A stretch of DNA of 64,000 nucleotides from a virus. Each line of letters opens with the position of its first letter. Position 1 is the first letter of the stretch. This document shows positions 13,862 to 61,106 of the stretch, piece after piece. The DNA lies in the IMG/VR virus record IMGVR_UViG_3300042359_000853, positions 163,584 through 227,583 of that record. One strand, 5' to 3'. The notes under the pieces are model-generated. The model was not told the origin of the DNA. It did not search any database and worked only from the letters and a program-made list of their open reading frames with translations. Both the position numbers and the translations under genes were made by a program.

Positions 13862-14431
13862 ATGAAATATAAAGTAAGTGAATATGCTAAATTGAAAAAC
13901 GTTACCTACCGAACCGTTTGGAACTGGATAAAATCAAATAAGATAGACTATCAAACTACAAACACCGGTGGTCTGGTTATAGTTGAAGAAGATCCCAATT
14001 CAAATAAAGAGGTAGCAGTTTATGCTCGTGTTTCTTCATCAGAGAATAAAGATAATCTAGAAAGACAGAAAAATAGATTATTGGACTATTGTGCTTCTAG
14101 AGGATATAAAGTTTCTAGTATAGTAACAGAGATTGGATCTGGATTGAACGATAAAAGACCAAAATTAGAAAAAATTCTAACAAATAGATCTATAAGTATA
14201 ATTGTAGTTGAACATCGGGATAGATTATCAAGATTTGGATTTAATTATATAGAAAAACTATTAAATTCAAATGATAGAAGGATAGAGGTAATAAATGAGC
14301 CTCTTAATGAAAAAGAAGATTTAATACAAGACTTTGTATCTATAATTACTAGTTTTACCGCTAGATTGTATGGACAAAGAAGAAGTAAAAGAAGAACCGA
14401 ATTTCTTATAAAAAATCTACAAAGTGAATGA
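13862..14431 (+). CDS. tnpA: IS607-type serine recombinase TnpA
   Basis: 189 aa. An N-terminal MerR-like helix-turn-helix (YKVSEYAKLKNVTYRTVWNWIK, residues 3-24) is followed by a serine-recombinase catalytic domain with VAVYARVSSS (51-60), LERQ, and VVEHRDRLSRFG. A C-terminal basic RRSKRR segment closes it. It catalyses excision and integration of the element through a serine-linked intermediate. Length is normal and all motifs are intact, so the gene looks active. Confidence 0.93.
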   Translation: MKYKVSEYAKLKNVTYRTVWNWIKSNKIDYQTTNTGGLVIVEEDPNSNKEVAVYARVSSSENKDNLERQKNRLLDYCASRGYKVSSIVTEIGSGLNDKRPKLEKILTNRSISIIVVEHRDRLSRFGFNYIEKLLNSNDRRIEVINEPLNEKEDLIQDFVSIITSFTARLYGQRRSKRRTEFLIKNLQSE

Positions 14432-22351: not shown

Positions 22352-22858
22352 ATGTTAAACCAAAAACCTACTAACACACAGAAATACCATCAAGGATTGT
22401 ATATTCCACAGAATCGTGATAAACTCATTAAAGCTAACAACGAAGGTGGCGTCTATTATAGAAGTGGTCTTGAGAAAAAAATGATGATCTATCTAGATCT
22501 TAATGATAAAATTTCAAGGTGGTGCTCAGAATATATTAAAATACCTTATGAGAAAACCGAATGGAGTTCTGTAAGAAAAGATTTTGAGACAACCCAACAT
22601 ACTTATTATCCTGATTTTTACTATGAACTTTATAAATCAGACGGTAGTCTTTCTAAAGTTGTAGCAGAGGTTAAACCACGCTCAGAAACAATTGAGCCAG
22701 TAATCAAGGAAAACATGACCTCGAAACAGATAAGAAATCTCGAATACAGCTTAAAAACATATAATAAAAACCTACAAAAGTGGAAGTATATGATAGAATA
22801 TTGTCAGAGAAAAGGGTTCGAGTTCATTATTATCACCGAAGAACATTTAGGAAATTGA
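22352..22858 (+). CDS. 4: Head completion nuclease, T4 gp4-like
   Basis: 168 aa, close to T4 gp4 (150). Shared features are QKYHQGLYIPQNRDKLI, the YRSGLEKKMMIYLD helix, RWCSEYIKIPY, YYPDFYYEL and VAEVKPRSET. The PDF...EVKP pair is the acidic/Lys nuclease signature of the PD-(D/E)XK type. Gp4 acts after DNA packaging, trimming or closing the head before tail joining. It is divergent from the preceding gene, and its end overlaps the endonuclease gene by 12 nt. Confidence 0.85.
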   Translation: MLNQKPTNTQKYHQGLYIPQNRDKLIKANNEGGVYYRSGLEKKMMIYLDLNDKISRWCSEYIKIPYEKTEWSSVRKDFETTQHTYYPDFYYELYKSDGSLSKVVAEVKPRSETIEPVIKENMTSKQIRNLEYSLKTYNKNLQKWKYMIEYCQRKGFEFIIITEEHLGN

Positions 22859-24364
22859 GGGTCTTTTCCAGATCCATTTATCTTGACCACATCCCCAAAT
22901 TCTATAATAATTTTGTGAATGCATGATTTGAACTTCAGTAAGTGTTGAATCATGGCCTAGACTAACTAATTTTCTTTTATTGTAACCAAACCGATGTTTT
23001 CTCAAACCATCGACCACCCACCAGTAGTTCAATCCACTATTCTTATCAAAAATGAATCCGAGTCTAGAATATACTTCACCAGAATATAGGGAAAGATCTG
23101 CGTAGGTTTTGATCTCTTCAATATTTGTGTTATTTCTGATAAAATATTCGAACAATCTAGATGCCGAACCAGTGACCTGATAATCAATACCGTTACAAAA
23201 TCTTAGAAGTTCATATTCTTTTTTTCCATTGATCCAACGAAAGCCAAAAGTCATTAAGCTTACTAATCTATCTTCATAAAAAAGACCCAACGCTGTTGAA
23301 TAGTTGGAATAACCTTGTATATGATTATCATTTAAAAACTTAGAAACTATTTCTCTTTGAGTTACCCCTTTAATTTGGCATTTTCTAGCAAATATTCTAT
23401 TTTTAGATTTTTTACATCTATTTAATAAAATAGATTTAAGAACTTCTTTTCTATTTTTCCAGTCATCCTCCCAGATATGTATAAGTTGAACGCCTCTTTC
23501 TTTACATAAGTTTGTTTTCGTGAGATGATAGTTTTTATCTTTTTTAAATTCACTATGCCAATAAAGTCTGTTGAACTCAATAGCGAGATTGTGATCTGGT
23601 ATATAAATATCAAGAAGTAGAGGTGAAATAAGATCTCTTTCACTAATTTTATGGTTGATTTCTTTTTCGTTTAGAAAAGAAGAAATTTCATCTTCAAATT
23701 TACTTCTATTGTATGATTTTATATTATCTCTTGAATGTTTTGTGTTCAAGTATGTTTCAACTCCGTATTTTATGAGGCAAGTTTGTTTTATTTTTTCTTT
23801 GACCTGGTCGAGTTCTAGCTGGTGATTGACGCCCCATCTTTCTAAGTAATATTTTTTTGTTTTCAATTTAAATTCTTCAGTCTTAAAGTAATGATCTGTT
23901 CCCCATTTTTCAAGTGCCGTTTTCTTGTATTTTTCTTGTATTTCTGGGTTTTGAAAACTAGATTTATGACCCCATCTCTCTAGGTTAGTTTCTTCCTGTC
24001 TTTTTTTGATGGTATCTGACTTAGAAACGTTATCCACACCCCACTTTTCTATCGAGGTATTCATTCTCTTCTCTTTTGTAGATTGATCTGTGGCTGAACA
24101 TTTTGCTGAACAAAAGTCCCTATATCCATCTCTCCAGTTACGGTGAAAAGAGGTTTTACTCCCACACTTACAAGTATAATACTTCGGTTGGTTCGATACC
24201 CAATGCCAAATTTTCTGGATAAAGGGTAAGTCTTCAATATTTTTACAAAAACTTACGATCTCTTTGTATAGATCAGAGAAATTATTTCTGAGGAAATTTT
24301 CTCGTAATCTAACAGAGTGACCTTGTGTGACTTCATTTATCTTATTTAATCTTAGTTCATCCAT
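22847..24364 (-). CDS. Free-standing homing endonuclease (Vsr-like PD-(D/E)XK, EDxHD type)
   Basis: 505 aa. Residues about 60-95 form a zinc finger (CKCGS, FCSAKCS). Then come about five tandem repeats with LERWG/LEKWG and GV-x-x-x-x-x-S elements (about 95-215), likely DNA-contact units. The nuclease core has LLDIYIPD, LAIEFNRLYWHS and LIHIWEDDW. The C-terminal part (KCQIKGV..., NDNHIQGY, LMTFGF, ELLRFCN, SRLFEYFI) is shared with the endonuclease at 28.4 kb. It sits between gp4 and the major capsid gene and is free-standing, not in an intron I can see. Confidence 0.8.
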   Translation of the reverse strand: MDELRLNKINEVTQGHSVRLRENFLRNNFSDLYKEIVSFCKNIEDLPFIQKIWHWVSNQPKYYTCKCGSKTSFHRNWRDGYRDFCSAKCSATDQSTKEKRMNTSIEKWGVDNVSKSDTIKKRQEETNLERWGHKSSFQNPEIQEKYKKTALEKWGTDHYFKTEEFKLKTKKYYLERWGVNHQLELDQVKEKIKQTCLIKYGVETYLNTKHSRDNIKSYNRSKFEDEISSFLNEKEINHKISERDLISPLLLDIYIPDHNLAIEFNRLYWHSEFKKDKNYHLTKTNLCKERGVQLIHIWEDDWKNRKEVLKSILLNRCKKSKNRIFARKCQIKGVTQREIVSKFLNDNHIQGYSNYSTALGLFYEDRLVSLMTFGFRWINGKKEYELLRFCNGIDYQVTGSASRLFEYFIRNNTNIEEIKTYADLSLYSGEVYSRLGFIFDKNSGLNYWWVVDGLRKHRFGYNKRKLVSLGHDSTLTEVQIMHSQNYYRIWGCGQDKWIWKRPSIS

Positions 24365-28396: not shown

Positions 28397-30103
28397 CTAC
28401 TTATTCAAGATCCATTTTCTGTTACCACAATTCCAAACTCTTGAGTATCCAAGTTCTTGTGTTATTTGCTCTTCTGTTTTGTTTGGATCAGCTCCTTTTT
28501 TTACAAGTAAGTGTTTTCTATAGTTGAAACGATGTTTTCTAATACCATTAACAACATACCAATATCCGGGTTGTGATTGTCCTGAATAGTCAAAACCCAA
28601 TGTTTCGTATAGTTCTCCCTGAGAAATCATATTATCTGAGTAGGTTTGTATCTGTATCCAAGAATAGTTGTTTTTAAAGTGTTTTAGTAATTTTGAGGCA
28701 CTTCCTGGACAACTAACATAATTTTTGTTACAAAATCTAGTTAGTTCCCATATACCTTCACCACCTTTTCTAGAAATAGGTAATCTTATTTTGGAAAAAC
28801 ACATAAGTGATATTAGTTCGCCTTCATAATACAATCCTAATCTTACAGAAGATTTACAATCTCCTTGTAAATGATTATCTTCTAAGAATTTTTTTGATTC
28901 TAGATAGAGAACTTCTCTTATCTGACATTTTCTAGCCCAAATACGAGTAGTTGGTCTTTTCAACTTGTTTAAAATGAAAGATTTCACGATATCTTGTTTG
29001 GTCAAATAATCATCTTCCCATATAGTATAAAGTTTTATTCCTAGTTTTTCACACACTTTCATTTTTTCTAGATGATAATCTTTGGACTTGAATCTAGATG
29101 AGTGCCAAAAAACTCCATTAAATTCAAATGCAATTTTAAGATCTGGTAGATAAAAATCAAGCTCTTTGGGATATATTACTGATTTATCATTCATAAGAAC
29201 TTCGCCATCAAAATTTTCCTGAAATATTTTTAACAATTCTTCTTGTTTTAGTGAGATAGTCTCACCTATAGGATGGCATATAGTGCATATAGGTGTTGAA
29301 TTTTTTACTCTTGTATAGAACTGATAGGTTAAAATATTGAAATTCTTAAAACACTTATTACAACCAAAATGTAGCGAAGTAGTATCTGTATCTTTATCAA
29401 ATCCAAGAAAAGTATAGTCTGATGGATTTATTTTTTCTTCAATTCTATCTCTATAGTTTTTGTAAAACTCGAAGATTGTTTTTTTATGAACTTCTGGATT
29501 AGACCAGGGGTGTTCTGTACCCCATCTTTCTATAGACGTTTTTTTATAGGATTCTTTCCAGATCTGGATGTTTTCTTTGAAACTTTCAACTCTTTTATCT
29601 AATATATCTCTATTCTTTGATGGATTATCAACTCCCCAATTTTTGATAAGTGTTTCTTTTGATTTATTTTTAACCACATCACTAGACATAGGTGAATTAC
29701 CGCCCCATTTGGTTTGATTAGTTTGTATTATCTTGTTCCGAATGGTCGGGGATTCACTTGGTGTTTTAGTTCCCCATTTTTCAAGTGAATTATTTATTTT
29801 TTTATTTTTTACATTAGGATCAGAAGAAATACATTTTGTAGAACAATATGAAATATATCCTAGAGTTGAATTTTTATATTTTGTAAAATTCTTACAATCA
29901 TCTCTTTTACATTTTGGTTGAGTAGTAATTCCGTGATATGATAAGTAAACCTTTTCTTTGAACGGTAAGTCATTCAATCCATTTTCTTTGCAAAAATTTA
30001 AGATAGCTAAATAATGATCCGGATAGTGATATTTGACATAAGATTCTTTTGACATCTTACCTGAACTATCATTTTTTAATAAGTTGCCTAAATCTTCTAA
30101 CAT
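28397..30103 (-). CDS. Free-standing homing endonuclease, second full copy
   Basis: 568 aa. Architecture matches the 22.8 kb protein: zinc finger (CKRDDCKNF, YCSTKC), four to five tandem LEKWG/IERWG repeats, nuclease core ELDFYLPD, IAFEFNGVFWHS and YTIWEDDY, and C-terminal CQIREV, EDNHLQGD, ELTRFCN, SASKLLKHF. It has an extra inserted segment with CNKC and CTIC pairs before the core. It lies between gp21 and the sheath gene, with its own box and terminator. Sequence divergence from the first copy is large, so they are separate invasions or an old duplication. Confidence 0.8.
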   Translation of the reverse strand: MLEDLGNLLKNDSSGKMSKESYVKYHYPDHYLAILNFCKENGLNDLPFKEKVYLSYHGITTQPKCKRDDCKNFTKYKNSTLGYISYCSTKCISSDPNVKNKKINNSLEKWGTKTPSESPTIRNKIIQTNQTKWGGNSPMSSDVVKNKSKETLIKNWGVDNPSKNRDILDKRVESFKENIQIWKESYKKTSIERWGTEHPWSNPEVHKKTIFEFYKNYRDRIEEKINPSDYTFLGFDKDTDTTSLHFGCNKCFKNFNILTYQFYTRVKNSTPICTICHPIGETISLKQEELLKIFQENFDGEVLMNDKSVIYPKELDFYLPDLKIAFEFNGVFWHSSRFKSKDYHLEKMKVCEKLGIKLYTIWEDDYLTKQDIVKSFILNKLKRPTTRIWARKCQIREVLYLESKKFLEDNHLQGDCKSSVRLGLYYEGELISLMCFSKIRLPISRKGGEGIWELTRFCNKNYVSCPGSASKLLKHFKNNYSWIQIQTYSDNMISQGELYETLGFDYSGQSQPGYWYVVNGIRKHRFNYRKHLLVKKGADPNKTEEQITQELGYSRVWNCGNRKWILNK

Positions 30104-34872: not shown

Positions 34873-35274
34873 TTATTTTTTCATGGCGTTTTCAAGTGAC
34901 TGACGAAGAGCTGAAGAAAACTCAGTTCTCTCGAAAGGAAGTTTTTCATCTTGAAGTTGAAGTAAGGTTGAGGATACAGAAGTTTTGTTTGATCCTTCAC
35001 CGATATACTCTTTGCCGTCGATAATAATTTTTGTTTTAACAATCGTTTTCTTTTGCTTGAACTCGAAAGGTCCGATACGAATACCTTTTGTTGGTGCTTC
35101 GATTGAAAGTATTTCTACGTTAATAGCTCTGCCGCTATCACATAAGGTATATCTATCGTTAGCAAGTTCCGTAACGATTTGTTTTGCTCCGTAGGTTAGT
35201 TTTGTATCTTGGACACCGTTCATGTGAGCGAGTGTTATAACACTCGCTATAAAGTAACAAATAATTGAATCCAT
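34873..35274 (-). CDS. Small exported hypothetical protein
   Basis: 133 aa. The first 20 residues (MDSIICYFIASVITLAHMNG) look like a short signal peptide or membrane anchor. The rest is a mixed domain with LCDSGRAINVEILSIEAPT and IDGKEYIGEGSNKTSV strands. It is the last gene of the leftward exported-protein cluster before the endolysin. No family recognised. Confidence 0.6.
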   Translation of the reverse strand: MDSIICYFIASVITLAHMNGVQDTKLTYGAKQIVTELANDRYTLCDSGRAINVEILSIEAPTKGIRIGPFEFKQKKTIVKTKIIIDGKEYIGEGSNKTSVSSTLLQLQDEKLPFERTEFSSALRQSLENAMKK

Positions 35275-35278
35275 TTTT

Positions 35279-35338
35279 AATTTCTAGATTTTATCTTGAA
35301 ATTTTTAATTTCAAGTATAGTTATATATCTAGAAATTA
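35279..35338. repeat. Nested inverted repeats between two exported-protein genes
   Basis: The outer arms AATTTCTAGAT (35279-35289) and ATCTAGAAATT (35327-35337) are perfect over 11 bp. Inside them a second perfect 9-bp pair, CTTGAAATT and AATTTCAAG (35295-35303 and 35307-35315), has a 3-nt loop. A TATATAT run lies in the 3' spacer. It may be an mRNA end structure, a regulated promoter or an operator. Confidence 0.7.
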
Positions 35339-36505
35339 ATCTTGAATTTTAGAAGCAGTTGTTGTAGTTCTGTGTTTACCTTTTGAAACTATCCATATTA
35401 GTGAAGTATTCTCAAAGGTTCTAGTATGACTCAGAGGTCTTGTCAGGTAGTAATTTGGTAAAGTAGAGTTTTGTTCTATATCGAGTTTTTCGGCGTTGGA
35501 AAACACTAGATTTTGATTTAATGTTGAATTATTCCAAAATATATTCCAAGCAGATTTAATATCAAAATAATTTGTTGTAGAGTCTGAGGTTATATCACAA
35601 GTGTAAAAATCCCAACTTCTCATCTCTGATGGAAAAGTTTTCATAAAGAGTAAATAATTCAGTTCTGATTCTATTATTGTGTTAGAGTATTGTGAACTAT
35701 TTATTGTAGCTCTGAACGTATAGTTTTGTGGATTAGAAAATGAAGAATTACCCTGCGTATTTGTAAGAATAGTTCCTTGTGGTATCCAAGTTGAACTCTG
35801 AACGAAAGGCGTAAAAAGGACGGAGGAGTTAGAGGTTCCGCTCCAATTTGAACCATTCCTTCCTGGTGTGGTGATTATTTGAGAGTTATCACTATTTGAA
35901 ATACCCTGTAATGAAGATAGAGAAGCGCAACCAGGGTGCGAGAGTAGATTTATTCTTACAGTGTTGGTAGTTTCTGATAATACTATTTGAAAATCAGTAA
36001 AGAGAGTAGTAGTTGTTCTACAATTATAATATCCAATGTGATAACTTACTATAAATCTTCTATTTGGTTGTGATCCGGTAGTTTGGTATCTAACAAAATA
36101 TCCGGATATCGGAAAGAGATCCATAGCGTTTGCGTGTATTCCGTTTCTTACTGTATTATTTGGAGAACCACCAACGATATCACCACCCGTATTGGTAAAT
36201 GAAATCCATCCGTTAGAGCAGATATTTACAGTTGTAAAATTAGTTCCCCAGTAATTGAAAGTAAAACCAATTGGTAGATTTGATATAGTCTGGTCATCAC
36301 CGAGAGTAAGTGAAGTTCCTGATGTTGATTCATAAGCATATGGAACAGATCCTTGTGTGTATCCAGTCTGACCTGGAACAAAATGTTCAACCGTTACTGG
36401 AATTCCCTGTGGTATTCTACCATCAATAGTAGAAATAGTAATAACTTGGCCAAATACAACACTTGATAAAAAGAGAAAATACGTAACAATTCTAAATATT
36501 TTCAT
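35336..36505 (-). CDS. Exported beta-rich protein with dockerin-like C-terminal module
   Basis: 389 aa from the ATG at 36505 (MKIFRIVTYF); an ATG 6 codons earlier lies on the promoter side and is less likely. A signal peptide ends VVFG before Gln. Residues about 50-200 are a beta domain with YAYESTSGTSL, LPIGFTFNYWG, VNICSNGWISF, the type seen in Bacteroidota cell-surface proteins. The C-terminal 100 residues (DFYTCDITSDSTTNYFDIKSAW...) match the layout of a module shared with the proteins at 36.9 and 40.7 kb. It probably ends up on the host surface or in the medium. Confidence 0.7.
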   Translation of the reverse strand: MKIFRIVTYFLFLSSVVFGQVITISTIDGRIPQGIPVTVEHFVPGQTGYTQGSVPYAYESTSGTSLTLGDDQTISNLPIGFTFNYWGTNFTTVNICSNGWISFTNTGGDIVGGSPNNTVRNGIHANAMDLFPISGYFVRYQTTGSQPNRRFIVSYHIGYYNCRTTTTLFTDFQIVLSETTNTVRINLLSHPGCASLSSLQGISNSDNSQIITTPGRNGSNWSGTSNSSVLFTPFVQSSTWIPQGTILTNTQGNSSFSNPQNYTFRATINSSQYSNTIIESELNYLLFMKTFPSEMRSWDFYTCDITSDSTTNYFDIKSAWNIFWNNSTLNQNLVFSNAEKLDIEQNSTLPNYYLTRPLSHTRTFENTSLIWIVSKGKHRTTTTASKIQD

Positions 36506-36543: not shown

Positions 36544-36969
36544 ATGAAACTTATAAAAAAATTTGAAGAGTTTTCACCAGGTGAAAGTTGGGATAATCTT
36601 TCTAAAAAAAGGGGCAGAAAATTAGATCATTTAGTAGGTCAAACACTTAATTTTAATATCATAACTTATCGCACTGAGGATTTCACCAAAGACGAATTAG
36701 AATATAAAAGAAAAACTAACTATGTCGGCACTATAAAACAAGTTCTAGATTGGGATATTTACGAAGAGCCAAAACTTGTTATTGAGTTACCGGAAAGAAC
36801 ATACAAAATAGGATATAACAAAGCAAAAGATATCTTCTACATAAGTAGATACTATCTAGCTAATCAAATTTTAGGAAAACGAGATGTTGATAAAAATATT
36901 TTAGAAGAGTTTAAACAATTTTTCTATAGTCAACTTTTCGATCTTGACAAACAATACAGAGATCAATAA
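36544..36969 (+). CDS. Hypothetical protein with aromatic start motif
   Basis: 141 aa, starting MKLIKKFEEFSPGES, a form of the recurring targeting-like motif. The rest is alpha/beta with a central YVGTIKQVLDWDIYEEPKLVIEL strand pair that may be an SH3-like barrel. It is the only rightward gene inside the leftward exported-protein region, and overlaps the stop of the PA14 gene by 7 nt. Function unknown. Confidence 0.6.
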   Translation: MKLIKKFEEFSPGESWDNLSKKRGRKLDHLVGQTLNFNIITYRTEDFTKDELEYKRKTNYVGTIKQVLDWDIYEEPKLVIELPERTYKIGYNKAKDIFYISRYYLANQILGKRDVDKNILEEFKQFFYSQLFDLDKQYRDQ

Positions 36970-38117
36970 ACTAAATTCTGTTGATTAGTAAAACCCGGTG
37001 TTAGTAAATAAAAATTTGACACACCACCATTTGTAGGTGTAAAAGTGTAAGTAGATTGAATACCAGGTATCGTATTTCTTAGATCTCCAGTGCTAGAAAT
37101 AAGAGTATTCCACTGAGTTTGTGTGAAAAGAAGTGTTCTTTTTTGATAGGATAATCCACCTATTCTTCTTGATGTTAAATAAATATCACCAATAGTTATA
37201 CTATTATCACCCGTAATCTCGTATTTATGGAAATGGATAGAACGTAATGGTATTCTTTGTAAAACAATACTATCAATACCTAAAAAATCAGAACTTGTTA
37301 GATTTGACAAAGTTGTCGGTATAGTCACTTCTACAGACCATTCATCACCAATTAGTCCTGTTGAAGAAAGAGAATATTGACCAGAACTATTTGTTTGTGA
37401 AGTTGATTGTAAAGTCCAAGAGCCAGGTGATGAAGTTGGAATACCAATTTCCGAAGTTTGTAGAGAGTGAGTTGATTGACCGGGTCTTCTCCAAACAACA
37501 CTAAGACCATCACCTCCGGCATACTCCTGCATTCTAGCTCGAAAGGTGTATTGAACACCACTTGTTAAGTTAATATTTCCATAAATTGGACCACTCATTC
37601 CGTGACCACCGTAATAACTAACTACAAAATTTCCACCAATAAATAGATCAGATCCATCATCTGAGTTGATACCAAAAGAATATTGACCACTTGTTTGTGG
37701 TATAAATGTTCCAGTAACCTCAACTGAATAATACTCTCCGTTATTAGGGACTGTGGCTCCTGCGTTTCTGATTGTTGTGAAAGTCGTAAAATTTAGGCAA
37801 GTAGTAGTAGGTAGTGTTCCAGTCCATCTAAGTTGTGTATTTGAAAAACTAGTATTGAATAGTCGATCGAATTCAGATGTTACTGTAGGATATGCTCCGT
37901 ATTGTGAGGTATTTCCATTTCCCAAGTGTGTTGAGTATATTTTCACGTTCATCGTATTAGATAAAACTATAGTAGGTGTTCTTCTGAACAACTTTGTGAT
38001 AATATTCTGAACAGGAGCATCGCCTTCAGTTCTAATAAAACCTGAATGTGTAAAACTTTGCCCTTGAGTCGATAGAGATAAAAAAATAAGTAGTAGTGGA
38101 AATATAACTTTTTTCAT
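36963..38117 (-). CDS. Exported PA14-domain protein with dockerin-like module
   Basis: 384 aa. A signal peptide (MKKVIFPLLLIFLSLSTQG) is followed by Gln. Residues about 125-215 are a PA14 fold: VTGTFIPQTSGQYSFGINSDDGSDLFIGG, then VQYTFRARMQEYAGGDGLSVVWRRPG. PA14 domains bind carbohydrate, often with calcium. The C-terminal part has GDNSITIGDIYLTSRRIGG, dockerin-like, then a TQTQWNTLISSTG segment similar to TQAEFDAIITNP in the 40.7 kb protein. It is the last gene of an overlapping leftward run. Confidence 0.75.
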   Translation of the reverse strand: MKKVIFPLLLIFLSLSTQGQSFTHSGFIRTEGDAPVQNIITKLFRRTPTIVLSNTMNVKIYSTHLGNGNTSQYGAYPTVTSEFDRLFNTSFSNTQLRWTGTLPTTTCLNFTTFTTIRNAGATVPNNGEYYSVEVTGTFIPQTSGQYSFGINSDDGSDLFIGGNFVVSYYGGHGMSGPIYGNINLTSGVQYTFRARMQEYAGGDGLSVVWRRPGQSTHSLQTSEIGIPTSSPGSWTLQSTSQTNSSGQYSLSSTGLIGDEWSVEVTIPTTLSNLTSSDFLGIDSIVLQRIPLRSIHFHKYEITGDNSITIGDIYLTSRRIGGLSYQKRTLLFTQTQWNTLISSTGDLRNTIPGIQSTYTFTPTNGGVSNFYLLTPGFTNQQNLVY

Positions 38118-39613
38118 AATAGAATTTTAGTTCCTGTCAGGACTTGCCAGTTTAAAAATGACTGATTTACTTGATAAACACCAGAAAAACTAATAGTCCA
38201 TTTAAACTTAGAAGTTACTTTCATATCTGTATTTATCATAGGAATGAACAATAAACCACTCTGATACCACTGACCTTGGTAATAATAGGTGTAGGGTGAA
38301 TAAACACCAAGACCTAAAAAATTAATTCCAAGAGATCTACCACCCTTGAAATTAGTAAAACCACCACCCATCAATGCCCAGTTTCTAAAATCTTGATCTG
38401 ATAATTTTCCGGTCGTGAAGGTAGTGCCTGCCATTAGTGTTACTTTATTAACTTTCTGAGCGTTGAGTAGTGAGGCTGTTAAAAACCAATCGTTGTTAAA
38501 ATTAGTCATATAAGATGTCGAAAAAATACCCATATAGTTTTTCATCTTCAAAGAACCATAACCGGACAAATTAAGAATATTCTGACCTGTCTGGTAGTTG
38601 ATATTTAGACCTTTGATGAAGGTTTGTTCAGTATTTACATGTGTTAGTGATGTGTTGAAACGGAAGTTATCATTACCTGTTTTGGTGATATCAGAATCAT
38701 TTCTAATAACAACTATATCACCTGTAGCAATGAGAGCACCAGAAGCAACACGTGATGAACCTCGAGATGATTTACCACCACCAGAAGATCCCCCACCATC
38801 ACTACCTCCACTTTCACCACCACTAGAAACTTGTTGGTTTTGTTCTCCCAGTGCGGTTACGCCACCAGATTCGGAATTATTTTCTGTAGAACTACCGTTT
38901 TGAGTTGAACCACCTCGCTGATTTGACCCACCACCCCCTCCTGTGTTGTTACCGGGAGCAGAACCATTTCCGGTTCCACCAGTTCCACTACCTGATCCAG
39001 AACCACCACCAGAACCAGATCCACCAGTATTTGAACCAGATCCACCAGTATTTGAACCAGATGCACCTGAGTTGTTTCCTGAACCATCACCAGCATTACC
39101 ACCACTGCCACCTGAGTTGTTTCCCGAACCACCACTAGATGATCCTGAAGAGTTTGAGTTAGATCCATTACCGTTTTGACCTGTAGTTCCTCCAGTTGTG
39201 CCGGATCCGATACCACCGACCGAATTTCCTATCGAGCTAGCCATCGATACAACAGAAGTAAGAGATGCTACATTGTTAGCAGATACACTTCCCAAAAAAT
39301 TACTTAAATTCGTAGATGCTCCAGAAGCTGCTTGACCTCTTTCTGAAGCACACGGATCAGTTCCTGGTGGGAGAGAACTTATAATTCCCTCTCTCCATCT
39401 CTCAAGTTCACCATTTTCCATTTCAGCCTGAGTGAAAGTTCTGAATCTTCCTAAAAAATTAATTGTTACAGAACCACCTATGGGTATTTGAATAGTTTCA
39501 TTTCTTTGTAAACAACTATTATAATAAGTATAGGTGAAACTTTGAGCTTTTACACTCAAAATTCCACCTATACAAAGTGTTAAAATAAACGATAATAAAA
39601 ATTTACCAACCAT
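38114..39613 (-). CDS. Exported outer-membrane-like protein with Gly/Ser/Asn-rich centre
   Basis: 499 aa. A signal peptide ends SVKA before Gln. An N-terminal domain (SFTYTYYNSCLQRNETIQIP, then GRFRTFTQAEMENG) is followed by a low-complexity Gly/Ser/Asn/Thr tract of about 170 residues. The last 180 residues have alternating amphipathic strands with many aromatic residues and a hydrophobic end (VLTGTKILL), as in outer-membrane barrels. It overlaps the CsgG-like gene upstream by 11 nt, which suggests the two work together at the outer membrane. Confidence 0.65.
   Translation of the reverse strand: MVGKFLLSFILTLCIGGILSVKAQSFTYTYYNSCLQRNETIQIPIGGSVTINFLGRFRTFTQAEMENGELERWREGIISSLPPGTDPCASERGQAASGASTNLSNFLGSVSANNVASLTSVVSMASSIGNSVGGIGSGTTGGTTGQNGNGSNSNSSGSSSGGSGNNSGGSGGNAGDGSGNNSGASGSNTGGSGSNTGGSGSGGGSGSGSGTGGTGNGSAPGNNTGGGGGSNQRGGSTQNGSSTENNSESGGVTALGEQNQQVSSGGESGGSDGGGSSGGGKSSRGSSRVASGALIATGDIVVIRNDSDITKTGNDNFRFNTSLTHVNTEQTFIKGLNINYQTGQNILNLSGYGSLKMKNYMGIFSTSYMTNFNNDWFLTASLLNAQKVNKVTLMAGTTFTTGKLSDQDFRNWALMGGGFTNFKGGRSLGINFLGLGVYSPYTYYYQGQWYQSGLLFIPMINTDMKVTSKFKWTISFSGVYQVNQSFLNWQVLTGTKILL
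38740..39190 (-). repeat. Low-complexity Gly/Ser/Asn-coding tract
   Basis: The region is dominated by GGT/TCA-type codons read on the minus strand and includes short tandem units (GSNTGGSG). It generates several long false open frames on both strands. Confidence 0.8.
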
Positions 39614-40295
39614 TTTGCTCCAGACGCTTTACTAGGTTCATTGTAGCAACCTCCAAAGCTTTCTGAGTAGCAATACCAACAGTTGATTGGTCAAATCCCA
39701 TTTCTGGGTTCTTAAAGTAACCTTCACCGAATTGTGTAGATTGACCTTGACCAGAAGCAACGATATATTGTGAATTTTCTACATTAACTAAACGAATCTG
39801 AATACCCATAATAGTAGTATTGGTTTTCTTCAACTTACCTTTATCGTAGTTTTCTGAGTATGATACAGAAAAATCATAAATCTCTGCGTAAACGATATAT
39901 TTTGGTAAGCGAATACCCTGCATTTTTAGTTTAGTTTTACCATCGTCAAGACCGTCGATTTTCTTTTCCCAGGCGTCGAGCATTTGATTGACTACGGCGT
40001 CTTTTTCTTCGGTAAATTCAAAACGATTGGTATATAATAGATTTTCTACAATACGGTTAGATACACCAAGACCTAGTCTTTTTTCCCTAAGTTCAGGAAA
40101 AGTTTCCCAGAGTTCTTTGTTGACATTCAATTTTGAAAGCTGCACGGTTTGTTTTTTACCCGTGTAGGTTGAGATAGATTCTAGTGTTCTATCAGTTTTT
40201 TCAAAATCCGCTTGATATTGTGTGGTCGAAATACTAGATTTACAACCAACTACCATCAAGAAACTTAGTGAGAGAATCGATAACCAGTTTTTCAT
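39603..40295 (-). CDS. CsgG-like outer-membrane lipoprotein
   Basis: 230 aa. A lipoprotein signal ends VVGC (C18). The body has LGLGVSNRIVENLLYTNRFEFTEE, PKYIVYAEIYDFSVSY, MGIQIRLVNVENSQYIVASGQGQS and a late helix, in the order of CsgG-type proteins. CsgG forms an oligomeric outer-membrane channel that secretes curli subunits in bacteria. The motif match is moderate and the barrel strands are not obvious to me. Its place between a small membrane-anchored gene and an outer-membrane-like gene fits a secretion role. Confidence 0.6.
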   Translation of the reverse strand: MKNWLSILSLSFLMVVGCKSSISTTQYQADFEKTDRTLESISTYTGKKQTVQLSKLNVNKELWETFPELREKRLGLGVSNRIVENLLYTNRFEFTEEKDAVVNQMLDAWEKKIDGLDDGKTKLKMQGIRLPKYIVYAEIYDFSVSYSENYDKGKLKKTNTTIMGIQIRLVNVENSQYIVASGQGQSTQFGEGYFKNPEMGFDQSTVGIATQKALEVATMNLVKRLEQNGW

Positions 40296-40696
40296 TCTTC
40301 TCCCTCCTGTTCTTGTTGTTTTTGTCTGAGTCTTTTCATTCTCTCGGCTGGTGTTTCTTTCTTTTCCTCAGCAGGCGCAGCGGCTGGCTGAGCCTGTGGT
40401 TGAGATGCTGGCGCTACTTCTCTGATAGTTTCTTTCTCTCTGATGACGGTCGTTCCACCACCTCCAGAGTTACTCGATGCGTTGTTTTGGTTGTTGTTTT
40501 CCAAGTTGAGATTTATAACCGGAGCAGCCGCTGGTGCTACTTGTTCAGTTTTTGTCTCTTCACTGTCGTTTCCACCACCTCCGAAGAGAGTAGTAGAAAT
40601 CCATACACCACCACCTGTTACCACAGTTGCTAGTGTGCCTACGATGGTCTTTTTCAATCCACCCCAGGTTCCGTCATTTTCGGTTTCTTCTGCCAT
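40292..40696 (-). CDS. Small membrane-anchored Pro/Ala/Gln-rich protein
   Basis: 134 aa. One membrane segment (IVGTLATVVTGGGVWIST, about 18-35) is followed by a Gly/Asn/Ala/Pro-rich linker and a charged helical C-terminus (EKKETPAERMKRLRQKQQEQ). No signal peptidase site. The 4-nt overlap with the CsgG-like gene shows translational coupling. It may bridge inner membrane and periplasm; function unknown. Confidence 0.6.
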   Translation of the reverse strand: MAEETENDGTWGGLKKTIVGTLATVVTGGGVWISTTLFGGGGNDSEETKTEQVAPAAAPVINLNLENNNQNNASSNSGGGGTTVIREKETIREVAPASQPQAQPAAAPAEEKKETPAERMKRLRQKQQEQEGEE

Positions 40697-40715: not shown

Positions 40716-42617
40716 TTATTTTTTAATAAACTTATATATTTTTTGTTTTGTTCCTGTAGTTAATCTAACAAAATATAAGCCTGGCTTAAGAGTATTTGTT
40801 TCAATTCTTCTAGTGACGGTCTGATCTTGTGCTACAAACTGTGTTTCAGCGCTGTGTAGTTTTCCAGATAGATCGTAGATTTCTGAAGTTAGATTGTCTG
40901 GTGTTGTTTGAAAATAATCTACATACATTTCATCTACAACTGGGTTTGGATACACTCTGAAACCATTTACAAGTTGATCTACAAGATCTCTAGCTCTTCT
41001 ACCGTTTACGATTGTAGCATCGGTTGGTGAAGGAATGATATTCAAATCTTGTGCTTTATCACTACCAGCTGCTTTATTGATTATTTGTATAGGTGATTCT
41101 TCCCAGTTATTGTTTAGGATTTCAAATTTGAAGTTAAACATCTGAGTTGGATTAGTGATTAGAGAAGGTGACATTTTTGATTCGTGACCACCCCATAGAA
41201 TTTCACCTGTTTTCGATGAGATAAATGAGTTCCAAGCACTTGCCTCTTGTCCTACATTAACACCTACAAATTTAAAGATTTGAGGATTGTATTTTAGACC
41301 GATTTGAGAAGCACCTACTTTGTTACCATGTGTAATAAGTGTTACATTAACATCAACGGTATTATCACCAGAAATAGTAAGTTTAGGTATTCTAAACTGA
41401 ACTGAATCTTTGATGTTTTGGTAGATCATACCTTGATCAAGAACATAAGATGTTCCAGATGTGCCGGTGTTAAGTCTTTGTATTTGAAAAGAAACGTTAT
41501 TAAGACCCGTTCCAGTAACGTCACCAAGAACATATCCAAGATAAGTCATTGAGCTCATACCATTAAGTAAGAGATCTACGAGAGTTGTTCCGATGATCGA
41601 GGTTTGAAAAGTGTTAGGGTTTGTTATTATTGCATCAAATTCTGCCTGAGTATAATATCTAACATTGTATTCGTTAGCAACAACTGGTGACCAAGTCGTT
41701 CTTCCGGTAGCTAGACGATTAAATATAAGATACGCGTCAGAAACCGAAATTGAACCACTTCTGTTTACGTCAGCTTGTTGAAACTCATAAGATTGTGCTG
41801 TGTCAGCATAAATACTCATATCAGAAAGACGATAAGCATCTGTGATATTGATAGCTGAGTTATCAGAAAGTGTATCTAAATTTGATACTAATTTCACGTC
41901 ATAGAAAGAAGTATCGTAAGGTATTTTGATACCAGCAATACCAAAGGTGTTGGTAGTGAATCTTTGACCTCTTTGATAAGCTTGTGCTGACTTTAGTTTA
42001 TAGTCAAAGGCAAATGGCATTCCACTTGCAGGAGTTCCATCAACATTTAATACCGATACTGGTATTAAAAGAGTATCCATCTGAAATCTACCACCAAGAT
42101 TGTAAGTTCCTAGTGTGTTATCAATACCACTTGTAGTTGTAGCGATATTGTTGTAGGTTGGTGTTCCAGTGACTCTAAGTGAGTCTACAGATGAAGGATT
42201 GAAACCAACATTATGTGGAAGTAAAACCTCGAATACTGCGCCATCTGGCCAATCAAAAACAGCCGAAGATCCGGTGTAGATGGCTGTTGCATTTACCCAA
42301 CCTGGTTGTGAATAATAAGAACCATATTTGGTGGATATCGATGTTGTTGTAGGCCCCCATTTAACAATTGGTTGTTTGAATGAAGCCTGTGGATAAAAAA
42401 ATCTAACCTGAAAACCAGCATAGTTTGTAAGGGTTGGATTGTGATAGTGAAGATAAACTTTAGTAGTATCTTGAAGAATACTACCAAGTGTAAACACAGT
42501 GTCGATAATAAAGTGTGGAGAAGATGAGTTTGGTGATATCAAAACTTCATTTCTACCATTTTGGCCGAACGCATTGAGCGTTATTAGGGCAAAAAGCCCT
42601 ACAAGAAACTTTTTCAT
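40716..42617 (-). CDS. Exported cohesin/dockerin protein with T9SS sorting domain
   Basis: 633 aa. A signal peptide ends NAFG before Gln. Residues about 285-305 hold a dockerin-type element (ADVNRSGSISVSDAYLIFNRL). Residues about 405-520 look like a cohesin-type beta sandwich (VNVTLITHG, SQIGLKYNPQIFKFVGV, then MFNFKFEIL). The last 80 residues are a type A T9SS/Por C-terminal sorting domain: VYPNPVVDEMYVDY, SEIYDLSGKLH, LKPGLYFVRLTTG, YKFIKK. Such a domain directs export through the Bacteroidota-only type IX system and is then removed. This is strong evidence for the host phylum and an unusual phage cargo. Confidence 0.85.
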   Translation of the reverse strand: MKKFLVGLFALITLNAFGQNGRNEVLISPNSSSPHFIIDTVFTLGSILQDTTKVYLHYHNPTLTNYAGFQVRFFYPQASFKQPIVKWGPTTTSISTKYGSYYSQPGWVNATAIYTGSSAVFDWPDGAVFEVLLPHNVGFNPSSVDSLRVTGTPTYNNIATTTSGIDNTLGTYNLGGRFQMDTLLIPVSVLNVDGTPASGMPFAFDYKLKSAQAYQRGQRFTTNTFGIAGIKIPYDTSFYDVKLVSNLDTLSDNSAINITDAYRLSDMSIYADTAQSYEFQQADVNRSGSISVSDAYLIFNRLATGRTTWSPVVANEYNVRYYTQAEFDAIITNPNTFQTSIIGTTLVDLLLNGMSSMTYLGYVLGDVTGTGLNNVSFQIQRLNTGTSGTSYVLDQGMIYQNIKDSVQFRIPKLTISGDNTVDVNVTLITHGNKVGASQIGLKYNPQIFKFVGVNVGQEASAWNSFISSKTGEILWGGHESKMSPSLITNPTQMFNFKFEILNNNWEESPIQIINKAAGSDKAQDLNIIPSPTDATIVNGRRARDLVDQLVNGFRVYPNPVVDEMYVDYFQTTPDNLTSEIYDLSGKLHSAETQFVAQDQTVTRRIETNTLKPGLYFVRLTTGTKQKIYKFIKK

Positions 42618-42622: not shown

Positions 42623-42973
42623 TTATTCTTCAGTATTTCCAGATGAGAGAGACACTCCGTCTTCTTCATCCATCTTTTGAACAAGCATTTTATCTCTGTC
42701 TTCATTTGAGAACCAGAAATCAATTACTTTGTTCAAATTACCTACGAACGCACCTAAAAGAATAAGTAAAAGTTCTTTCCAGGCTTCAGCAATTGTAGCT
42801 TTGAATAGTACGGCCATTACTATACCAAAGATTATAAAGAAAAATGTTGATAGAATAATCAAAGTGATTTTCCATCTGTTAGACTGCATAGTTTGCAGCA
42901 TGAAGTTAAACCGTTCATCCGGCTCAACTTTTTGATACTCCGTGTTGTAGAGTAGTTTTGTAAGTAGTCCCAT
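42623..42973 (-). CDS. Two-membrane-segment protein, holin candidate
   Basis: 116 aa. Two hydrophobic helices (ITLIILSTFFFIIFGIVMAV and ELLLILLGAFVGNLNKVIDFW) are separated by a short loop, with both ends charged and an acidic C-terminus. Size and topology fit a class II-like holin, which would let the 34 kb endolysin reach the wall. It lies 5 nt before the T9SS protein gene, so it may head the exported-protein operon. An alternative is a membrane helper of that cluster. Confidence 0.55.
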   Translation of the reverse strand: MGLLTKLLYNTEYQKVEPDERFNFMLQTMQSNRWKITLIILSTFFFIIFGIVMAVLFKATIAEAWKELLLILLGAFVGNLNKVIDFWFSNEDRDKMLVQKMDEEDGVSLSSGNTEE

Positions 42974-43598: not shown

Positions 43599-46184
43599 TT
43601 ATATTTCAATTACATCCAATCTGCCAGTATTTGATGGATTTGAATCATCAGTAATCTCTAACATAAAACTCTTAAAACTTTTACCCGTGGATTCTACTTC
43701 TCTTTCATAGAAATTTTGGTAAGTTTCTAAATCTATTGTTGATAATCTTTGATTTGGTGCACTTAAGAATTTATTATTTTGATCATAAAGTGCTGATAGT
43801 TGAATATTAGCCTCTCCTTCTTTACCATCTCCTTCGGGATCTTTTCTTCCAGAATAAAGTTGTGGATTTATTTTAACTTTTTGATAATGAACAGATCTAA
43901 AAGGAGATTCATTTATATCACAATAGAATATCCAAATTATACCATTTTTTTCGTACAAATATCCATAGTATATGTTAGGGTCAAGTTGTGTAACATCACT
44001 CCAATCTGTGTATCCAGTATAACTCGATCTATTATCTTCATAAAATTTATTTGCAGATAATGGAGTCTTAAAAGTTATTTTGACAGGATAAAACTTTATC
44101 GACACACCACCTGATTTTGTTTCAACTTTATCTACTAATGATGTATCAAGAAAATTAACATAAATAGGAACATTACTTCCTGATTTATTTTGTAGAATAT
44201 TACCGTAAGAAGTATTTTGTATTTCTGATTCCTCTTGTTGTGATATAGGATCTTTAGTAGTTGGGATGCACCACATGAATCTTTGTGTTGTTAGCGATGG
44301 TTTTACGTTCCAATATAAAAAATTTTGATTTGTATCACTGTTTTTACTCTTGTCGGCGGAATATCTCAAATCGGGTAATTTTTCTTGAATTTCTTGTCCA
44401 AAATATTTACGAGTGGCTTCGTCTATTAAATCTTCACCTCTACATTTTGATGGGGTTGCTAAATCTTGAAGTAAGTTGAACAATACTGGTCCCATCTTGC
44501 CCTTCCCTTGAATTTTTGGTGTTGATGAGTCCTGATTTTCCAATAATAATTTCCATTTGTATGAATCATTGAATTTATCCTCTGCTCCTGGATAATCAAA
44601 GTTTATATTTGCAAATATCTTCCTTAATTTTTGGTCTTGAAGTAGTCGATTTACGAAAGTCTGAAACTTTCTATAGACGATCTTTTTTGCCCAAGGTCCG
44701 AAATCAGGAATTACAGCTTCTCCACCCGCATCTTTTAGTGTAGAACTAGCGTCTCTACCTTTAGATGGACCACCTCCCAATTTTTCATATTCTTGAAAAG
44801 TTTTCATCGAAACTCTACCACCTGGTCTACCCGAAGGTATATAATCTGTTGCAAATAATCTATATGCTACTGTTAATAAGTTAAATAGTCTTACCATAGC
44901 ATCCGAAGCTATTTGATAGTCGAGTGTGAATGTTCCAGCGGAAAGTTGATTCTCTAGTTCTTCTAGTTCTCTTTCATCATCTCTAGTAAGTCTGAAAGCT
45001 GTTAAATTTTTCTCATTTACCATAGAATATTCATAATGAAAATTCTCATTGATGCCTGCTTTTGGGAAATAACTTTTCCAAATATTAGCAATTGTTTCCG
45101 GTTTTAGTGTTGTTGTTGAGGTTGTTATTGTTGGCGTTGGAACTGGTGTTGTAGTAGTTGATGTTGTAATACTCTGTGTTGTAGTTGATGTATTTGTTTG
45201 CGTTACAGTTGAAGTATTTGTTTGAGTTACAGTTGAGGTATTTGTTTGAGTTACAGTTGAGGTATTTGTTTGCGTTACAGCTGGTGTAGAAGTATTGGTT
45301 TGTGTAACAACTGGTGTTGTTTTTATATTTTTTTTATTATATGAAGTAGAACCAAAACCTATTTTTCCCCTACCGTAATCCGTATTTTTAATACCTATTT
45401 GAGATTTTGTTTTTATTTCTTCTAATAATAATCTATATTCTTCAAATTCAGAAAATTTACGGAAAATTCCTTTATTTAGTGATTCATTTTTTACAGAAAT
45501 TTCTTTTCTCAATACTTCGTCTGAATCAGACACAACAGTTCTCTCTTTCCACTGTTGTTTTCTAGCATTATCGCCTCCTAGATCTCTAGTTGGATTACAT
45601 TTTTTCCATCTAAATCTTCTAAGTTCGATAGCGAAATCCGAGTGAATATCTCTCAAATCATTCAATTCTTCTCTTTTGAAAAGTTTTTTTAGTTCTTCTA
45701 AAGTTTCTAATTCTAGTAATAAATCACCAATTAGTGAGCCTGGTGGTAGGTCTTTCCATTTATCTGTTATATCTTTATTGGAAATAAATTTAGCATCTGA
45801 TGAATCGATGCCAATTAATAATTTTAGCTTTGTGTCATCTGTGCCCGTGCCATCACAATCTACGTCTTCTTTCCAATCAGGTAGAGCATCATTTGTTGTT
45901 AAGCAAACATCTTTTATTTTAGCAACGTGATTTTTTATTCTTAGTCGATACAACTTTACTCTCAAATCTTTATTCATACTTTCTCTGAGAATCTCATAGA
46001 TAGTATTTTCTATTTCTTGTAAAACCCCATCCATCCTCATAGAATCATATTGAAGTTTTAATTTTCTCAAAGTTGAGTTTATTAGCCTTCCAAATAAAGA
46101 ACCACCCCAAGTTACTTCATTTTTGAATACTTCATTCATTTTATCTTTTTGTAAAAAAGTATCTCTTTTAAGAATATATCTCAT
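43599..46184 (-). CDS. Large hypothetical protein with Thr/Gln repeat linker
   Basis: 861 aa. An N-terminal helical, charged region (1-245) ends in IFRKFSEFEEYRLLLEE, an internal copy of the recurring aromatic motif with an L-L-E site. A linker (about 285-360) follows, with tandem VTQTNTST units. The C-terminal 500 residues are alpha/beta with YSMVNEKNLTAFRLTRDDE, WCIPTTKDP and IYYGYLYEKNGIIWIFYCD stretches. I recognise no family. If the motif marks head targeting, the part after the L-L-E site would be the mature product. Confidence 0.6.
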   Translation of the reverse strand: MRYILKRDTFLQKDKMNEVFKNEVTWGGSLFGRLINSTLRKLKLQYDSMRMDGVLQEIENTIYEILRESMNKDLRVKLYRLRIKNHVAKIKDVCLTTNDALPDWKEDVDCDGTGTDDTKLKLLIGIDSSDAKFISNKDITDKWKDLPPGSLIGDLLLELETLEELKKLFKREELNDLRDIHSDFAIELRRFRWKKCNPTRDLGGDNARKQQWKERTVVSDSDEVLRKEISVKNESLNKGIFRKFSEFEEYRLLLEEIKTKSQIGIKNTDYGRGKIGFGSTSYNKKNIKTTPVVTQTNTSTPAVTQTNTSTVTQTNTSTVTQTNTSTVTQTNTSTTTQSITTSTTTTPVPTPTITTSTTTLKPETIANIWKSYFPKAGINENFHYEYSMVNEKNLTAFRLTRDDERELEELENQLSAGTFTLDYQIASDAMVRLFNLLTVAYRLFATDYIPSGRPGGRVSMKTFQEYEKLGGGPSKGRDASSTLKDAGGEAVIPDFGPWAKKIVYRKFQTFVNRLLQDQKLRKIFANINFDYPGAEDKFNDSYKWKLLLENQDSSTPKIQGKGKMGPVLFNLLQDLATPSKCRGEDLIDEATRKYFGQEIQEKLPDLRYSADKSKNSDTNQNFLYWNVKPSLTTQRFMWCIPTTKDPISQQEESEIQNTSYGNILQNKSGSNVPIYVNFLDTSLVDKVETKSGGVSIKFYPVKITFKTPLSANKFYEDNRSSYTGYTDWSDVTQLDPNIYYGYLYEKNGIIWIFYCDINESPFRSVHYQKVKINPQLYSGRKDPEGDGKEGEANIQLSALYDQNNKFLSAPNQRLSTIDLETYQNFYEREVESTGKSFKSFMLEITDDSNPSNTGRLDVIEI
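45100..45320 (-). repeat. Thr/Gln-coding tandem repeats
   Basis: Repeated 24-bp-like units encode VTQTNTST four or more times, then Thr/Pro-rich sequence. Units are nearly identical, so the array may vary in copy number. Confidence 0.75.
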
Positions 46185-59378: not shown

Positions 59379-61106
59379 TCAAATACAGTAGTAAGAGGAC
59401 ATAATCGACCCATTTGTATTGATCTGTAGAGGTCTTTTTGTCCCTACACCACCAACTGTAAGTGCTATCCACTTTCCACCACCATTTGTAGGTGTGGTAA
59501 GTGCGGCATCATCATAGATAATATCTCCATTAATTAAAAACGCTAATGATTTAGTGCTATAATAAGCTCTGACTGTTTGATAAGTTGAACAAGCACCAGC
59601 TGCGTTTATAGCATCCGGAGTAGTTCTACCTAAGAATGTAAATAAGGTTGGAGTTGGTGTGGGTGTTCTTGTTGGAGTAACAGTTGGTGTTTTGGTTACT
59701 GTAGGAGTTGGGGTTTTAGTTGATGTTATTGTGGGTGTAGGTGTAGGACTCATAACAGGATTTTCATTCTGTGGCAAACCCCAAACGAGTTTAATGGATT
59801 TACTTTGTGAGTACAAATTGGAAAGATTAACAGAAATCTGAGAGAAAGTTCCAGAGAATTTTATTATACCTGTAGCCATGTTAGCACCACTTAAAATATA
59901 ACTAGATTCTGATACTAATGAAGATTTTAGTTCTGGACAATCGTTACAATCACAACACATAGAATAAGTTGAGCTAAATTGTAAATATTCCGTATTCGTA
60001 ATACCTGATTGGGAGAAACCTAGATGATAGATAGCTAAAACAGGATCAGATACGGGAGAATTGAAGACAAAACTATGTGTTCCATTACAAACCATCCTGA
60101 ATCCACCTGTTCTTTCAGGATTTCTAATATCACAACTCATGTAATTGTAGGCACTCGAATAAGTATTTCCACCACAAGAGAACGTAGCACAAGATCCAGC
60201 ACCAATTTCGCAGTTGTGGCCAGCTATATCTATTGGATAAATTGTTCTACTTGGTGTTGTGCACAAACCAGATACGTTATTCTCTACCGTGTTTATGAAT
60301 TGAGAAACTAAATTGTAAAGACTAGAAGATGATGTTGGTGAACTATAGAAATTTGCTGTTCTAGGAACAGGATCTACAAAACTACCACCGTTGGGTTGAG
60401 ACCAGTCAAGACCATTCAAGTAAGACCATAAATAAACTCCATCACCTTGTGTACATTCAGGACAACCAGGTGTTGCGCTAGGTGTCTGTGTTAATGTAGG
60501 TGTCAGGCTCGGTGTTAAAGTTGATGTGATTGATGGAGTAGGTGTGTTGGTGGGTGTCGCTTCTGGTGATGCACCGGGTGATCTTGTTATACTAGGTGTT
60601 ACTGTTATTGTGGGTGTTAATGTAGGTGTAACTGTTGAGGTTGAACTTGGTGTGGATGTAGGTGTGTCAGTTGGTATTGGACTCTCAGTTGATGATGGTG
60701 TAGAAGTATTCGTTGGTGTTGGATCTGGGGATATACCGGGAGTTTTAGTTAAAGTTGGTGTTGGTGTCGGGGTAGAAGTGACAGTGGATGTTACAGTTAG
60801 TGTTGGTGATACAGCAGGCAAAGAAGTGTGCGATGGAGATGGTGTAATAGAAGGTGTCAAAGTTATAGTAGGTGATGGTGTTGGTGTTAGAATATAGTTA
60901 GATACTAAAACTGTATAATCACAACCATCACAGGTAAAAATATAAGTTCCATTTAACTCATCCGATCCTCGGCCGTATAAAATAGGATCAAAAGTCCAAG
61001 GAAAACTAAAAGTAGAACTAATATTTAAGACACCTCCACCACTGGGAAAAATAAGTTGTAATGTGCAGTTTGTAAGCGGACTAGCCTCAAAAGTTACTGT
61101 AGCCAT
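59379..61106 (-). CDS. Thr/Pro/Ser-rich structural or fibre-like protein
   Basis: 575 aa. An N-terminal beta domain (1-70) with FTCDGCDYTVLVSNYI leads to a mucin-like stretch of about 145 residues of T-P-T and S-x-T-P units (71-215). A Cys-rich beta domain (215-450; CPECTQGDGVYLW, SFSCGGN, CCDCNDCPELK) comes next. A second Thr/Pro run (455-490) and a small C-terminal domain with AYYSTKSLAFLINGDIIYDD complete it. No signal peptide, so it is probably a virion surface or adhesion protein with extended linkers. The Thr/Pro tracts could be glycosylated (inference). Confidence 0.6.
   Translation of the reverse strand: MATVTFEASPLTNCTLQLIFPSGGGVLNISSTFSFPWTFDPILYGRGSDELNGTYIFTCDGCDYTVLVSNYILTPTPSPTITLTPSITPSPSHTSLPAVSPTLTVTSTVTSTPTPTPTLTKTPGISPDPTPTNTSTPSSTESPIPTDTPTSTPSSTSTVTPTLTPTITVTPSITRSPGASPEATPTNTPTPSITSTLTPSLTPTLTQTPSATPGCPECTQGDGVYLWSYLNGLDWSQPNGGSFVDPVPRTANFYSSPTSSSSLYNLVSQFINTVENNVSGLCTTPSRTIYPIDIAGHNCEIGAGSCATFSCGGNTYSSAYNYMSCDIRNPERTGGFRMVCNGTHSFVFNSPVSDPVLAIYHLGFSQSGITNTEYLQFSSTYSMCCDCNDCPELKSSLVSESSYILSGANMATGIIKFSGTFSQISVNLSNLYSQSKSIKLVWGLPQNENPVMSPTPTPTITSTKTPTPTVTKTPTVTPTRTPTPTPTLFTFLGRTTPDAINAAGACSTYQTVRAYYSTKSLAFLINGDIIYDDAALTTPTNGGGKWIALTVGGVGTKRPLQINTNGSIMSSYYCI
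60470..60890 (-). repeat. Thr/Pro/Ser-coding low-complexity tract
   Basis: GGTGT-rich imperfect tandem units read on the minus strand as T-P-T/S. They also create a long false Val/Gly frame on the plus strand. Confidence 0.8.

Follow-up and report, generated by a model that had tools for sequence, protein, structure and literature searches.

What does a phage build with a lipoprotein that looks like CsgG? The question is raised by three overlapping genes on the minus strand, at 38114-40696 of a stretch of viral DNA of 64,000 nt (positions 163,584-227,583 of IMG/VR record IMGVR_UViG_3300042359_000853, itself 227,583 bases long), the whole of which we call the window. CsgG is the channel for curli export, and its pore is nonameric. 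A preliminary description of the window had read the three products as a single-span membrane protein, a CsgG-like lipoprotein and an exported protein with a barrel-like end, and had supposed that the lipoprotein could form a dedicated export system. We find that the three genes are part of a larger module, the anatomy of which is well supported by computation. Its lipoprotein (G) appears to have the fold of CsgG without being a standard CsgG, and the next gene encodes a predicted beta-barrel (BAR); around these two stand a cohesin protein with a sorting tail of the type IX secretion system (T9SS), a shorter paralogue of G and a slot of exchangeable proteins. Taken jointly, these parts may make up a phage-encoded envelope and surface-display module, a function that we hold at about even chances.

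Layout and conservation of the module

The genes of the module and its neighbour are the following.

42623..42973, minus strand: HOL, 116 residues; by eye it resembles a holin, with two hydrophobic spans; the probable transcript starts with it
40716..42617, minus strand: COH, exported protein of 633 residues with dockerin, cohesin and T9SS sorting tail
40292..40696, minus strand: TM, single-span membrane protein of 134 residues with an Asn/Pro/Ala-rich tail
39603..40295, minus strand: G, CsgG-fold lipoprotein of 230 residues; the signal peptide ends in VVGC
38114..39613, minus strand: BAR, exported protein of 499 residues; two-Cys N-terminal domain, helix, Gly/Ser/Asn linker, predicted C-terminal 12-strand beta-barrel
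36963..38117, minus strand: slot protein 1, exported, 384 residues, Pfam PA14
35336..36505, minus strand: slot protein 2, exported, 389 residues, dockerin-type loop (ATG start used; the mechanical open reading frame (ORF) runs from 36523)
34873..35274, minus strand: P133, shorter paralogue of G, 133 residues
33972..34826, minus strand: endolysin (peptidoglycan-binding domain and GH19), a neighbour whose membership in the module is not shown

The overlaps reported beforehand are indeed there, with gaps of -4 nt between TM and G and of -11 nt between G and BAR, and the PA14 gene (36963-38117) joins as a fourth by overlapping BAR (-4 nt). Almost the entire module looks exported: read by eye, each of G, BAR, COH and the two slot proteins has a signal peptide of the form common in Bacteroidota, while TM (one hydrophobic stretch, near its N-terminus) and HOL have membrane spans; HOL was given no name in the family searches. 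Portal, major capsid, sheath and terminase genes of T4 type also occur in the window, and a head protease is matched in PHROGs. The genome is therefore myophage-like, and the module sits in a large T4-type myophage of Bacteroidota, in keeping with the phage origin first assumed.

We collected relatives of G by two overlapping scans (59 and 78 loci; the second counted at least 557 confirmed relatives). Of the 106 loci retained, 104 have a G ORF and serve for the counts of gene order, each neighbour being counted only where it was found or where the flank was long enough. These loci are redundant, many being near-identical contigs, and are not independent; the window itself is one of them (L001) and the scans favour its closest relatives. 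TM lies just upstream of G at 87 of 98 loci and COH upstream at 89 of 96; BAR lies just downstream at 93 of 94 and P133 further downstream at 81 of 90. HOL relatives are found upstream of G at only 38 of 92 loci, and an endolysin homologue is present in 69 of the 106. The same order recurs in the cultured Flavobacterium phage immuto, where a lectin (gp013) and gp014 are followed by the cohesin protein (gp015), TM (gp016), G (gp017), BAR (gp018) and P133 (gp019); the lectin gene is there upstream and not in the slot, and the genes of the module are mostly annotated as hypothetical. This means that the gene order, for which conservation in related phages had been asked, is kept in most of the 104 loci and in immuto. 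It also means that the module is larger than was first seen, since it comprises COH upstream, lectin or PA14 proteins downstream and a paralogue of G. One more gene, on the plus strand (36544-36969), stands between the two slot genes and has homologues in only three of the collected loci.

Fold of G and the question of the pore

By sequence G could not be named: it matched no family beyond chance in Pfam, PHROGs or NCBIfam and no solved structure, and the Pfam CsgG family (PF03783) matched neither the window copy nor any of 25 aligned relatives. Its structure was predicted with AlphaFold2 from a 24-row alignment (predicted local confidence, pLDDT, 63.6; predicted template-modelling score, pTM, 0.58). 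Compared by Foldseek with the PDB, this model gave CsgG in every one of rows 1-20 (best E 7.8e-9). By VIA, it matched CsgG with Z 13.9 (3.2 Å over 152 residues) and the membrane-bound form of CsgG with Z 12.9 over 166 residues; lower in the same comparison came CT253 (11.3), PelC (11.2), a PelBC entry (10.2) and TraT (8.7). The best viral match of the model is an annotated phage CsgG. Finally, one of seven divergent G proteins (locus L062), which is 41% identical to the G of the window, passes the Pfam CsgG cut-off (28.6 against 20.8 bits). Both the structural matches and L062 argue that the first guess was correct for the fold and the superfamily, as far as a predicted model can tell. Neither of the two outcomes named beforehand as contrary to it, a fold unrelated to CsgG or genes scattered in relatives, was found.

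G could then be a true CsgG-type nonameric pore, secreting a fibre or adhesin encoded next to it, as the preliminary description had it. CsgG is its best structural match, the strands of its first hairpin (18-19 residues in the model) are long enough to reach into the membrane, the window copy has a lipobox, and phage curli modules exist (PMC9599517). Against this speak the spans of the membrane hairpins, which we measured between conserved landmarks with a pattern that missed one of seven CsgG and five of 45 G proteins. The second span is 30 residues in G proteins (30-34 in 40 of the 45) against 43-45 in six of the seven CsgG, and the first is 25 residues (25-29) against 29; the second membrane hairpin is thus 13-15 residues shorter in G. 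The model contains a single long hairpin (133-151/154-171), followed by a strand (177-191) and a helix (203-228), and not the two transmembrane hairpins per subunit of a CsgG. Among 76 distinct G N-termini, 53 show the lipobox pattern, that of the window included; 12 others have a Cys but no lipobox pattern and 11 no Cys (two of these being truncated ORFs), and one clade has plain signal peptides. Neither CsgE, CsgF nor curlin repeats (PF10614, PF07012, PF10627) were matched at E<=1 in the 227,583-base record, which may be incomplete, so that the partners that make a curli (type VIII) operon are not seen here. Moreover, the operon already encodes a barrel of its own. With a short second hairpin, a single hairpin in the model, one clade that lacks the lipobox and none of the curli partners found, there is no support for a CsgG-type pore: G is not a standard CsgG, the proposed export channel is unproven, and we consider a true CsgG pore distinctly unlikely.

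P133 gives only weak family matches by itself, below cut-off. When 44 G and 43 P133 representatives are aligned by hhalign, the probability is 98.2 (E 4e-14), so by profile comparison P133 is a shorter paralogue of G. A role of P133 as CsgE was considered and dropped, CsgE not having been found in the record. We also searched genome contigs with two peptide patterns and obtained three G relatives among 141 candidates, two of them in phage-like gene neighbourhoods and one, L062, beside truA; cellular homologues thus exist, but they may be undercounted. L062 lies on a contig of an Ignavibacteriales metagenome-assembled genome (MAG), among truA and other cellular-looking genes, where (7980-14019) G and P133 stand in tandem and are followed by a protein of 825 residues with a weak transglutaminase match and then by a CHASE2-adenylate/guanylate cyclase. 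The curli clusters of pelagiphages and of a methylophage likewise end in an adenylate/guanylate cyclase (cf. PMC9599517). The tandem and this common ending suggest a bacterial source for the pair, on the basis of one MAG contig.

Other CsgG-like genes occur in Brevundimonas and Caulobacter jumbo phages (L107 7935-8825, L108 7806-8651), some of them annotated as such; a small gene lies ahead of each, and that of CcrColossus encodes a putative lipoprotein.

The barrel, the cohesin protein and the slot

The barrel-like end seen beforehand in BAR is supported by its model (46-row alignment), in which twelve long C-terminal strands are predicted (residues 293-498, pLDDT mostly 70-92), and by structural matches that have twelve strands as well. 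The barrel matches the NalP translocator with Z 23.5 (2.8 Å over 227 residues; the match spans model residues 94-499), KdgM with Z 17.1 (1.8 Å over 160 residues) and FapF with Z 16.4. What BAR has in common with NalP, the KdgM/NanC porins and FapF is the 12-strand barrel fold; it differs from them by an identity of about 7-10% and by a long disordered linker between its helix and its barrel, the Gly/Ser/Asn centre being predicted disordered. Its N-terminal domain has two invariant Cys. In autotransporters (type V) a helix lies in the pore directly before the 12-strand translocator, whereas the helix of BAR (96-132) is some 160 residues from the barrel in sequence. It is modelled at low confidence, and hence an autotransporter-like plug cannot be claimed.

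COH has a signal peptide (by eye) and a C-terminal sorting domain, as expected of T9SS cargo: the window copy scores 48.7 bits for TIGR04183 (cut-off 23) and 43.5 bits for Por_Secre_tail (cut-off 27), and its cohesin is above the Pfam cut-off. Among 24 COH relatives searched with Pfam and NCBIfam, 22 have Por_Secre_tail, 21 Cohesin and seven Dockerin_1. Far from the module, another phage gene encodes a second T9SS-tailed protein, of 524 residues (L112 151-1725; sorting tail at G000:C1:7090-7308).

For the slot, which lies between BAR and P133, we used 47 representatives, which include both slot proteins of the window; near-copies, an unrelated short ORF (L007) and the immuto record were left out. 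Their domains are Lectin_C (16), PA14 (9), Laminin_G_3 (4), SdrD_B (4), Ig_7 (3) and others, and slot protein 2 matched no Pfam family at E<=1. The gene varies in size and fusion even where G hardly does: it encodes 353 residues in L004 and 598 in L017, with G 93% identical in both. By these domain matches, the slot carries exchangeable domains of carbohydrate-binding type. A dockerin-type loop is found in 17 of the 47 slot proteins and 18 of 24 COH (shuffle means 0.9 and 2.1), against seven of 220 other ORFs of 300-700 residues. We also considered whether a diversity-generating retroelement might act on the C-type lectins; no reverse transcriptase was found in any of the 18 records searched, which may be fragments.

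Reading of the module and its alternatives

A TATATA-containing motif (typically AATATATA) lies at most 60 nt upstream of 38 of the 66 genes of the window, often 25-35 nt before the start codon, and occurs in 30 of 37 intergenic gaps of at least 20 nt, when shuffled sequences give 3.8 on average (maximum 11 in 300). It is probably the phage's own promoter. A copy of AATATATA stands 26 nt upstream of HOL, and motifs of this type also precede the portal, major capsid, protease, sheath, endolysin and terminase genes. The 60 nt before COH, G, BAR and slot protein 1 contain no copy, and there is one copy 42 nt before TM; the motif before HOL and its absence before those four genes fit a single transcript starting from HOL. 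The motif resembles the late promoter of T4, yet it is common in the genome and is therefore no proof of late timing. Scans for sigma-70-type promoters and terminators gave shuffle level only.

The surface-display reading would then run as follows. The genes from HOL to slot protein 1 would be transcribed together and late, from the motif type of the head and tail genes, and their products would leave the cytoplasm through Sec, COH then crossing the outer membrane through the T9SS of the host. TM, G, P133 and BAR would form a trans-envelope assembly, to which the barrel of BAR would supply the membrane pore or anchor, while G would be a ring or adaptor on the periplasmic side, as PelC is beside PelB, rather than a CsgG. 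If cohesin and dockerin pair, the cohesin of COH would keep lectins that carry a dockerin attached to the infected cell's surface. The benefit would likely lie in a change in the stickiness of that cell, which could bring new hosts near by aggregation or exclude competing phages. The conserved cluster of envelope-directed products suggests that the virus rebuilds the surface of its host while it replicates.

Several observations weigh against this. The model of G is of moderate confidence, as its scores above indicate. By hhalign, G aligned with four phage CsgG at a probability of 1.4, and 44 G with seven CsgG at 21, scores that are weak for phage and flavobacterial CsgG alike and speak against a close kinship of G with true CsgG. 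Dockerin_1 is matched at E<=0.01 in only two of the 47 slot proteins, the cohesin-dockerin pairing being an assumption. Lastly, the promoter motif stands before 38 of the 66 genes and so does not mark late ones alone.

In a bolder form, the module would be a new export and assembly pathway, in which two CsgG-fold paralogues and a 12-strand barrel form an outer-membrane apparatus of their own and, together with the host T9SS, build a cellulosome-like cohesin-dockerin scaffold of exchangeable lectins on the Bacteroidota cell; we think this unlikely, but worth stating. If the display reading is true, many Bacteroidota phages would remodel the surface of the cell in which they replicate and would use the host T9SS for at least one product, modules of the phage curli kind would reach a second phylum, built differently there, and natural scaffolds for the display of lectins would be on offer. 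The role of such modules (aggregation, exclusion or lysis) could then be tested with a cultured pair, immuto and Flavobacterium sp. LMO8.

A different account makes the cluster a lysis module, with HOL as holin, TM and G as the inner-membrane and outer-membrane parts of a spanin-like pair, and a contribution of BAR and the endolysin to breaching the outer membrane. The overlap of a membrane-protein gene with a lipoprotein gene, the holin-like aspect of HOL, the endolysin homologue at 69 loci and the lytic role proposed for a phage CsgG (PMC9004378) would all agree with it. In a two-component spanin, however, the outer-membrane partner is a lipoprotein in all members, and one clade of G has no Cys, several G having a plain signal peptide. 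G, besides, folds as a domain of some 200 residues and has a paralogue, HOL is upstream at only 38 of 92 loci, and COH, the T9SS tails and the exchangeable lectins are left unexplained. We give lysis a low probability. Superinfection exclusion of the TraT kind, by coating the surface or blocking the receptor, with adhesion as a by-product, would suit products that are exported, presumably late, and a slot domain that is exchangeable, as a part directed at a receptor should be. TraT does appear in the list of structural relatives of G, but far below CsgG (Z 8.7 against 13.9), and a coat put on after late expression would protect only briefly; this too seems quite improbable. That these proteins belong to the virion, as decorations of fibre or baseplate, with misleading signal peptides, as the adjoining tail sheath and endolysin genes and the lectin-like domains typical of receptor binding might suggest, is very improbable: G, BAR, COH and the two slot proteins have canonical signal peptides, 22 of 24 COH proteins have a T9SS tail, and an outer-membrane barrel is out of place in a tailed virion.

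It remains to compare the presumed display module with known systems. In PelC/PelB, an exopolysaccharide exporter, the lipoprotein PelC works beside an outer-membrane barrel, PelB. PelC shares the fold of G; no polysaccharide synthesis genes were noted in our module, BAR has 12 strands, and the likeness is one of fold only. With the CsgG of E. coli and Flavobacteria (PF03783), G shares the fold and, in most members, the lipoprotein nature; it differs by the shorter second hairpin, the failure of the 25 aligned members to match the family and the missing CsgE and CsgF. In the literature, pelagimyophages carry CsgF and CsgG (PMC7029224), the type VIII modules of pelagipodophages are fuller and include curlin repeats, FecR and adenylate cyclase (PMC9599517), and methylophage Melnitz has a curli module, a phage CsgG being proposed to act in lysis (PMC9004378). 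As here, these modules (HTVC008M, Melnitz) group a CsgG-family protein and exported partners in one operon, which is conserved and presumably serves at the host surface. Theirs contain CsgF, curlin-repeat genes and a CsgG of full length, and neither a T9SS tail nor a cohesin or barrel was noted in them; ours has a shortened G, its paralogue and a separate barrel, with no CsgF or curlin repeat found. T9SS type A sorting tails are known from Cryophage genes, one of them with a PA14 domain as in our slot (PMC7468147, the available part of which mentions no CsgG-fold protein or cohesin), and T9SS-tail genes occur also in crAss-BACON lineages (PMC6949934). The preliminary description knew of no phage system of this make-up. 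For the exact combination this holds within our search, which covered few subscription papers and preprints and turned up no phage described with a barrel, cohesin and lectins beside two CsgG-fold proteins. It does not hold for the elements: phage modules with CsgG and phage T9SS cargo are already published, and the present module is therefore a variant of them and not wholly new.

Elsewhere in the window, two large proteins (43599-46184, just upstream of the module, and 59379-61106) have PHROG 15511, of unknown function, in common. Two homing-endonuclease-like genes (22847-24364 and 28397-30103) flank the major capsid and head-protease genes, and the phage encodes a tmRNA at 9171-9520, with a predicted tag of 29 residues.

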